DNA of 64,000 nucleotides from Halogeometricum limi (GTDB lineage Archaea; Halobacteriota; Halobacteria; Halobacteriales; Haloferacaceae): positions 1 through 64,000 of the forward strand of contig NZ_FOYS01000002.1 of the NCBI RefSeq assembly GCF_900115785.1, read 5' to 3'. The translations under genes and the position numbers were made by a program. The notes under the pieces are model-generated. The model was not told the DNA's origin. It did not search any database and saw only the letters and a list, made by a program, of their open reading frames with translations. Every line of letters begins with the position of its first letter. The stretch's first letter is position 1. Below, one piece after another: positions 30,820-32,938 of this stretch.

Positions 30820-30936
30820 TGGCTCGCGCCCCGTTCGCTCACGACGGTGAGCCACGGGTGCGCGGCCGGCCGTGGGCCCGCAACGCTTGCGTCCCGCGAA
30901 ACGTTGATTACGGTGCGAGAAAATCGACCGAGTACG

Positions 30937-31041
30937 ATGCGACGACGACCACCACAGCAGTCCGCCACTCCCGCAGCGTCGGGAGTCCCCGCGGACGACG
31001 TGGCGGCCGCGCAGTCGCTCATTATCGTAGGGGCCGCCTAG
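30937..31041 (+). CDS. Candidate ilvB leader peptide ending in Leu-Ile-Ile-Val
   Basis: A 34-codon ORF in the 364-nt gap before ilvB. It starts MRRRPPQQSATPAASG and ends AAAQSLIIVGAA, so four branched-chain codons (CTC ATT ATC GTA) come five codons before the TAG stop. A perfect 6-bp hairpin spans the stop codon. The operon makes valine, isoleucine and leucine. This is the layout of a leader peptide that senses the pathway end products, as in bacterial ilv attenuators. That it is translated and regulatory is inference. An in-frame ATG at 30847 could make it 64 residues. Confidence 0.5.
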   Translation: MRRRPPQQSATPAASGVPADDVAAAQSLIIVGAA

Positions 31042-31046
31042 CCCCT
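31029..31046 (+). promoter_or_regulatory. Hairpin overlapping the leader-peptide stop
   Basis: AGGGGC (31029-31034) and GCCCCT (31041-31046) pair perfectly around a 6-nt loop. The stem covers the last codons and the TAG of the leader ORF. A ribosome stalled at the Leu-Ile-Ile-Val codons just upstream could affect whether it forms. There is no strong T-run directly after it. It could act on transcription or on translation of the downstream genes. Confidence 0.4.
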
Positions 31047-31118
31047 CACTCTCTCCTCTCGACCGTCGACGTTTCGCCCGGCACACAGCCACAGAGAGAC
31101 TCACAGACCTTCCAGACG

Positions 31119-31187
31119 ATGGAGCACCACGACAGTACACGCGACCGGCGACCGAACCGACCCCTCACCCACGGAGGCCGACGATGA
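31119..31187 (+). other. 22-codon ORF overlapping the ilvB start (ATGA)
   Basis: ATG at 31119 opens MEHHDSTRDRRPNRPLTH and ends at TGA 31185-31187, which overlaps the ilvB ATG at 31184 by the usual ATGA arrangement. A GGAGG ribosome-binding site lies about 8 nt before the ilvB start inside it. It could couple ilvB translation to the leader region. It is short and chance occurrence is possible. Confidence 0.3.
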
Positions 31188-32938
31188 GCGAACCAGCACC
31201 ACCGAAGAAAGACGCCGACGAACCGGCCGACGAGGCGACCGAACAGACACCCGTGACCACGGGCGCGTCGTCCGTCGTCCGCGCGCTGGAGAACGCCGGC
31301 GTCGAAGCCGCGTTCGGCGTGCAAGGCGGCGCTATCATGCCCGTCTACGACGCCCTCTGGCACTCGGACATCCACCACGTCACGATGGCCCACGAACAGG
31401 GCGCGGCGCACGCCGCCGACGCGTTCGGCGTCGTCCGCAACGAACCCGGCGTCTGTCTCGCCACGTCGGGACCGGGGGCGACGAACCTCGTCACCGGCAT
31501 CGCCGACGCCAACATGGACTCGGACGGCGTCCTCGCCCTCACGGGACAGGTCCCCTCCGAGATGGTCGGGTCGGACGCGTTCCAGGAGACGGACACCATC
31601 GGCGTCACGACGCCCATCACGAAGCACAACTACTTCGCGGCGGAGGCGGACTCCGTCGGCGACACCGTCGGCGAGGCGTTCGCCCTCGCCGGCGAGGGCC
31701 GCCCCGGACCGACGCTCGTCGACCTCCCGAAAGACGTGACGATGGACGAGACGGACCGCCAACCCGGTCCGGCGAAGACGCCGAAGACGACGACGCCGAA
31801 GACGACGCCCGACAAGGCGGCCGTCGCCGACGCGGCGCGCGCCATCGAGGCGGCGGAACGACCGTTGCTCCTCCTCGGCGGCGGCGTCATCAAGGCCGAC
31901 GCCACCGACGAAGCTCGCGCGTTCGCGCGCGAGTTCGGTATTCCGGTGGTCACGACGATGCCGGGAATCGGTTCGTTCCCCGAGGACGACGACCTGTGTC
32001 TCTCGTGGGCGGGCATGCACGGCACCGGCTACGCCAACATGGCCATCACCCACACGGACCTCCTCGTCGCCGTCGGAACGCGCTTCGACGACCGACTGAC
32101 CGGCGGAGTGGACTCGTTCGCCCCCGAGGCGGAAGTCGTCCACGTCGACATCGACCCCGCGGAGATATCGAAGAACGTCCACGCGGACTACCCCGTCGTC
32201 GGCGACGCCGCGACGACGCTCGACCGCCTCGCGGACGAAGTCGCGACCGAACCCGACGCGGGCGAGTGGCGCGAGCAGTGCCTCACGTGGAAAGACGAGT
32301 ACCCGATGGACTACGCGACGCCCGAGGACGAACCGCTGAAACCGCAGTTCGTCGTCGAGTGTCTCGACGAGGCCACCTCCGACCGCGCCGTCGTCACGAG
32401 CGGCGTCGGCCAGCACCAGATGTGGGCCGCGCAGTACTGGACGTTCACGGAACCGCGGACGTGGGTGTCCTCGCACGGCCTCGGCACGATGGGCTACGGT
32501 CTGCCCGCGGCAATCGGCGCCCGACTCGCCGCCGAGGACGACCAGGAGGTCGTCTGCGTCGACGGTGACGGCTCGTTCTTGATGACGATTCAGGAGCTCT
32601 CCGTCGCCGTCCGCGAGGAGTTGGACATCACCGTCGCCGTCCTGAACAACGAGTACATCGGGATGGTGCGACAGTGGCAGGACGCCTTCTTCGAGGGGCG
32701 TCACATGGCCGCCGAGTACAACTGGTGCCCCGAGTTCGACAAACTGGCCGAAGCGTTCGGCGCGCGCGGATGGCGCGTCGACGACTACGACGAAGTCGCA
32801 GACGCCATCGAGGAGGCCCTCGCGTACGACGGTCCCTCGGTCATCGACTTCCACATCGACCCGAGAGAGAACGTCTACCCGATGGTCGCCTCCGGCGGCG
32901 CGAACGGCAAATTCGCACTCACGGAGGACCAGCTATGA
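31184..32938 (+). CDS. ilvB: Acetolactate synthase, large catalytic subunit
   Basis: A 584-residue thiamine diphosphate enzyme, the first common step to valine, leucine and isoleucine. The N-terminal PYR domain (FGVQGGAIMPVYDAL, with the catalytic Glu in AHEQGAAHAADAFG) follows an acidic extension of about 26 residues. The middle domain and the C-terminal ThDP domain have the metal motif VVCVDGDGSFLMTIQELSVA and NNEYIGMVRQWQDAFFEGR. It is followed by ilvN with an ATGA overlap. A good ribosome-binding site (GGAGG) precedes the ATG, which is uncommon in this window. Confidence 0.96.
   Translation: MSEPAPPKKDADEPADEATEQTPVTTGASSVVRALENAGVEAAFGVQGGAIMPVYDALWHSDIHHVTMAHEQGAAHAADAFGVVRNEPGVCLATSGPGATNLVTGIADANMDSDGVLALTGQVPSEMVGSDAFQETDTIGVTTPITKHNYFAAEADSVGDTVGEAFALAGEGRPGPTLVDLPKDVTMDETDRQPGPAKTPKTTTPKTTPDKAAVADAARAIEAAERPLLLLGGGVIKADATDEARAFAREFGIPVVTTMPGIGSFPEDDDLCLSWAGMHGTGYANMAITHTDLLVAVGTRFDDRLTGGVDSFAPEAEVVHVDIDPAEISKNVHADYPVVGDAATTLDRLADEVATEPDAGEWREQCLTWKDEYPMDYATPEDEPLKPQFVVECLDEATSDRAVVTSGVGQHQMWAAQYWTFTEPRTWVSSHGLGTMGYGLPAAIGARLAAEDDQEVVCVDGDGSFLMTIQELSVAVREELDITVAVLNNEYIGMVRQWQDAFFEGRHMAAEYNWCPEFDKLAEAFGARGWRVDDYDEVADAIEEALAYDGPSVIDFHIDPRENVYPMVASGGANGKFALTEDQL

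Follow-up and report, generated by a model that had tools for sequence, protein, structure and literature searches.

The 34-codon open reading frame (uORF1) ahead of the branched-chain amino acid operon of Halogeometricum limi probably encodes a control peptide through which a ribosome-mediated attenuator senses isoleucine and valine (probability about 0.7, from sequence comparison). Regulation by a stalled ribosome, which the earlier note had proposed, is the best reading of a conserved leader that joins branched-chain codons to a stop-codon hairpin and has parallels with Phe and Trp codons at other loci. A classical bacterial transcription attenuator was not established, since the compared loci yielded no U-tract, terminator or alternative hairpin of universal occurrence. 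The uORF1/hairpin leader as such was confirmed by the comparison as real and conserved, far beyond chance.

The leader and operon in the window

The window analyzed is a stretch of 64,000 nt from Halogeometricum limi (NZ_FOYS01000002.1, positions 1 to 64,000, forward strand; genome of 3.6 Mb). It displayed the following features around the start of the operon:

30897..30910, + strand: BRE and TATA-like box (BRE CGAAA at 30897-30901, TATA-like TTGATTA at 30904-30910), about 32 nt upstream of the uORF1 ATG
30937..31041, + strand: uORF1, 34 codons plus TAG, ending SLIIVGAA-stop; frame open in 81/81 loci, 17 lengths
31015..31022, + strand: TCGCTCAT, Ser-Leu-Ile codons, possible start-codon sequestering arm; reverse complement of the ilvB start ATGAGCGA (31184-31191), with an RNAalifold helix in some clades
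31024..31033, + strand: core ATCGTAGGGG, Ile-Val-Gly codons; 81/81 loci, Val replacing Ile in one
31029..31046, + strand: hairpin AGGGGC-loop-GCCCCT over the stop TAG (31039-31041); fifth pair standard in 101/109 loci
31046..31065, + strand: pyrimidine-rich, G-poor tract 3' of the hairpin, from base composition over ilvB loci
31119..31187, + strand: uORF2, 22 codons, MEHHDSTRDRRPNRPLTHGGRR-stop, its TGA overlapping the ilvB ATG; present in 70/81 loci
31173..31177, + strand: GGAGG, Shine-Dalgarno-like sequence of ilvB; SD-like in 54/81 loci
31184..32938, + strand: ilvB, acetolactate synthase large subunit (Pfam TPP enzyme domains), first gene of ilvBNC-leuCDB (to 37885)

The 34-codon ORF (translation MRRRPPQQSATPAASGVPADDVAAAQSLIIVGAA-stop, 30937-31041) and the perfect hairpin at its stop codon described in the earlier note were borne out at 30937-31046, the 6-bp stem pairing AGGGGC (31029-31034) with GCCCCT (31041-31046) at a local folding probability of 1.00. 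Its statement that the downstream operon makes branched-chain amino acids also held, Pfam giving the gene order ilvB-ilvN-ilvC-leuC-leuD-leuB; leuA ends directly upstream.

Conservation, probable translation and hairpin of uORF1

The comparison set comprised the window and 80 fetched loci encoding ilvB relatives (81 in total), the named nearest relatives being haloarchaeal. The core AT(T/C)GTAGGGG was found upstream of ilvB in all 81 loci, which share kinship and so do not count as independent events, with one variant (GTAGTAGGGG, locus L036). It always lay in frame within a short ORF started by ATG. Peptides ended in IVGA, IVGV or either plus one residue, and three loci extended a few codons more. 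The cognate codons of the core were Ile-Val in 80 loci and Val-Val in one, and the residues preceding the core Ile included I (40 of the 81 loci), R (18), G (10) and V (4). The conserved short ORF that had been anticipated was present throughout, but its supposed ending Leu-Ile-Ile-Val was limited to some clades, Ile-Val-Gly being the invariant part.

A protein search with the 34-aa peptide yielded no convincing relatives because conservation is confined to the last residues, and a comparison anchored on the locus was therefore required. Across the order, the pattern ATTGTAGGGGN{1,13}CCCC, which omits ATC-form genomes such as H. limi itself, matched in 207 of 293 genomes, nearly always as a single match, against about 20 matches altogether (counted from the table) for a reversed-pattern control. 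Other families carry a like leader, ending for example in ..VERELIIVGV-stop or ..AVVARALIIVGV-stop. Four further core matches within the H. limi genome look like chance sites, none being a leader of the uORF1 type.

Variant arrangements were also observed. A second ilv-type leader copy (..VGARLIVGV-stop plus hairpin) occurred at L118 and L121 (G031:C2:397923 and G194:C1:25410), where it precedes not ilvB but a small ORF (..DDDQQTMADVDHTPPHEAPGANRVFERGNEGRR-stop or a close variant) that had no Pfam match. A further second copy, at G171:C2:1392286, was seen as a pattern match alone. At L129 the hairpin is intact and TGG stands where relatives have the TGA stop, so that the leader peptide runs on; this locus speaks against the attenuator explanation.

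Translation of a conserved leader peptide across haloarchaea appeared probable from promoter placement and frame. A generic BRE/TATA matrix, drawn up from general knowledge rather than fitted to the 81-locus set, was used to score all ATGs up to 250 nt 5' of the core, whatever their frame. In 81/81 loci the top-scoring ATG shared the frame of the core and no in-frame stop intervened, even though 17 distances occurred, from 12 to 60 codons. In 68 of these loci the TATA box started exactly 32 nt upstream of the uORF1 ATG, a spacing that places the predicted transcription start a few bases 5' of the ATG and would make uORF1 leaderless, which we consider probable. Median promoter scores were 11.1 for uORF1, -2.9 for uORF2 and -4.6 for ilvB, and a second promoter at either of the latter two positions was rejected on these scores.

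Several of the eight final in-frame positions showed an excess of Ile, Leu and Val codons (53% at -5, 63% at -2). Outside the C-terminus, pN/pS ranged from 0.87 to 1.32 without codon-position bias, displaying no amino-acid selection; the dN/dS below 1 that the earlier note had put forward as a check was thus not found there. Values near 1 in this part are expected of an attenuator, and a drifting N-terminal part fits a control peptide rather than a protein with its own function.

The core was constrained largely at the nucleotide level. Its Val codon was GTA in 81/81 loci, a codon that makes up 0.5% of those for Val within the initial 300 nt of ilvB, and its Gly codon was GGG in 81/81; the Ile codon was ATT in 64 and ATC in 16 loci. 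Rare codons are fixed or favoured at the core (GTA, ATT), and the invariant GGG is explained by its forming a hairpin arm. The Ile-Val pair might accordingly follow in part from the hairpin and its flank. As to whether conservation acts on the peptide or on the nucleotides, the frame is kept in every locus but the core is partly held as nucleotides.

The loci share a GGGG..CCCC hairpin over the stop codon, with 5 to 8 nt between its arms. The GGGG arm begins 3 nt past the core Ile codon, within reach of a stalled ribosome. The fifth pair was of C-G, U-A or U-G type, and the occurrence of three pair types at this position supports an RNA hairpin. GTA pairs with UAC in many loci (TAC directly follows CCCC in 31/109), and an extended GUAGGGGC/GCCCCUAC stem was found in several clades. 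On inspection of the leader sequences, the hairpin of the window was not followed by a U-run, nor was such a run universal among the loci, and Rfam at gathering thresholds gave no match in the window or in 20 loci.

Such constraint could also reflect a nucleotide-level element, in which the inverted repeat GTAGGGG..CCCCTAC would serve as an operator in DNA or as an RNA hairpin bound by protein, the ORF being incidental. The invariance of GTA and GGG and the full stem of several clades agree with this explanation, which is nonetheless unlikely: it does not account for a promoter-linked ATG held in the core frame over 17 lengths without an in-frame stop, and the arm spacing varies, unlike that of a fixed protein dyad.

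Parallel leaders before pheS and a second trpS

Leaders with other cognate codons were found ahead of two aminoacyl-tRNA synthetase genes. A promoter-linked uORF with terminal Phe codons, mostly as a run, preceded pheS in 16 of 25 haloarchaeal genomes, H. limi included, a count that leaves out one ORF (L148) not fitting the pattern. The H. limi leader (L155, G000:C8) reads MSTGPRDGGGVARDSTVTDGFGFFFRVL-stop. These uORFs (L149-L170, with L155 among them) typically end in ..GFGFFF.., are of leaderless type and lie 168-345 nt upstream of pheS; a GC-rich, partly conserved stretch follows them. The pheS leaders had no Rfam match. In front of the second tryptophanyl-tRNA synthetase gene, a promoter-linked uORF with Trp-Arg-Trp codons was present in 5/5 loci (L221-L225). 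The Trp leaders keep the nucleotides TGGCGCTGG or TGGCGTTGG, together with GCGGACAGT or a close variant. Six further gene sets (the TyrRS, main TrpRS, TrpC, LeuRS, IleRS and ValRS loci) displayed no fitting cognate leader.

The Phe and Trp uORFs share no sequence like the ilvB core, which further argues against a nucleotide-level element. Differential RNA-seq in Haloferax volcanii reported uORFs in the long 5'-UTRs of pheS (26 aa) and of a tryptophan-tRNA ligase (23 aa), and the uORF table of that study (Table 2) does not include ilvB, which counts against the ilvB attenuator (PMC4983044). It seems reasonably probable that haloarchaea hold a family of leaderless-uORF attenuators, with Ile/Val codons before ilvB, Phe codons before pheS and Trp codons before the second trpS, which would sense amino acids through a stalled ribosome without a bacterial-type terminator.

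Possible output step, proposed mechanism and known systems

The second short ORF, uORF2, probably hands ribosomes to ilvB by translational coupling, as its placement suggests. Its stop codon overlaps the ilvB start as ATGA in 70/81 loci, and 84 of the 94 ATGs between uORF1 and ilvB are in its frame. Its start lacked a Shine-Dalgarno sequence in 67/70 loci. The uORF2 peptide is weakly conserved; one frame is kept despite 24 lengths, and a Tyr-Arg-Pro-Thr-like stretch is common to many copies.

These features would also suit a constitutive translation device, in which uORF1 loads ribosomes and uORF2 passes them to ilvB by termination-reinitiation, without amino-acid sensing. The ATGA overlap, the uORF2 start devoid of Shine-Dalgarno sequence and the lack of a further promoter near ilvB all fit this explanation. 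We regard it as quite improbable, because it leaves unexplained the fixed Ile-Val codons, the stop-codon hairpin and the occurrence of cognate Phe or Trp codons in the parallel leaders. An arrest peptide, whose nascent ..IVG(A/V) end would stall the ribosome near the stop on a free amino acid (TnaC-like) rather than on hunger for charged tRNA, is very improbable: the conserved residues are indeed the last before the stop, with an invariant Gly among them, but the hairpin arm accounts for the GGG codon, the residue preceding Ile varies freely, and the Phe and Trp leaders repeat cognate codons like sensors of tRNA charging.

Two forms of output were considered for the proposed Ile/Val-sensing attenuator, about equally likely. 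The leading guess, from folding models, is translational: the control codons would pair with the ilvB start region, and uORF2 would pass ribosomes on. Ab initio consensus folding (RNAalifold) gave a TCGCTCAT/ATGAGCGA-type helix in Haloferax, in the Halogranum group (including the window) and in two Natrialbaceae sets, but no start-sequestering helix in the Halorubrum, Halobellus or Halonotius groups. Since the helix is found in some clades and missing in others, sequestration is plausible in the window and not universal. Pairing scores against shuffles peaked near the ilvB start (mean z of -1.34 at offset +12). When ilvB start regions were swapped between clades, the cognate pair was clearly favoured in Natrialbaceae only. 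Blocking the footprint of a stalled ribosome in silico freed the ilvB start in 21/73 loci, compared with 2/73 for control blocks. Sequestration of the start codon as a universal rule was therefore not supported, being clade-limited.

The second form, about as likely as the first, is FttA-dependent termination within the G-poor tract. G accounted for 3% of nt 1-10 and 9% of nt 11-20 after CCCC in ilvB loci, compared with 33% in uORF1. FttA, an archaeal termination factor without homology to Rho, has a preference for U-rich RNA; for bacterial Rho, a coupled ribosome sterically excludes the terminator, and a similar idea has been raised for archaea (PMC11616081).

In the attenuation model, transcription would begin a few bases 5' of the uORF1 ATG, as the promoter spacing suggests, and the first ribosome would load in leaderless style at the 5' end. 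A shortage of charged tRNA-Ile or tRNA-Val would stall this ribosome at the conserved Ile-Val codons, and its footprint would then mask the hairpin's 5' arm together with the segment preceding that arm. With ample amino acids, it would reach the stop and depart, allowing the hairpin and any longer-range pairing to form, and ilvB expression would presumably be lowered. In the translational form of the output, TCGCTCAT would pair with ATGAGCGA, and uORF2 would pass ribosomes to ilvB. If this model is true, regulation that couples ribosome position to gene expression acts on archaeal genes too, and leaderless translation gains a regulatory role. H. volcanii is a genetic model in which the haloarchaeal leader system is testable.

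To our knowledge, leader-peptide attenuation has been described in bacteria only. A limited search, of titles and abstracts in open-access literature, yielded no archaeal precedent, and neither attenuation nor leader peptides are mentioned in a review on the coupling of transcription and translation in archaea. In Escherichia coli, ivbL, ilvL and leuL are the leader-peptide attenuators of ilvBN, ilvGMEDA and leu. The haloarchaeal leader resembles them in having a short ORF with Ile, Val or Leu codons just before branched-chain genes, and a hairpin placed where a stalled ribosome would disrupt it. It differs in being a probably leaderless uORF with few control codons and a hairpin over the stop codon, in that no U-tract terminator or universal antiterminator was found, and in a second ORF overlapping the ilvB start. 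In the bacterial pheST attenuator, pheM likewise encodes a Phe-rich leader peptide ahead of the genes for phenylalanyl-tRNA synthetase, whereas the haloarchaeal pheS leader is an archaeal uORF of leaderless type.

Regulation of the TnaC type involves the ribosome and Rho, with a conserved peptide end beside the stop codon and then a G-poor, C/U-rich tract. The haloarchaeal leader is alike in its conserved peptide end by the stop and in the G-poor, C/U-rich tract after it, but factor-dependent termination in archaea uses the non-homologous FttA (PMC11616081). The uORFs reported in H. volcanii 5'-UTRs likewise precede pheS and tryptophan-tRNA ligase; the account given with that uORF table, in which ilvB does not figure, holds no discussion of cognate codons or attenuation (PMC4983044).
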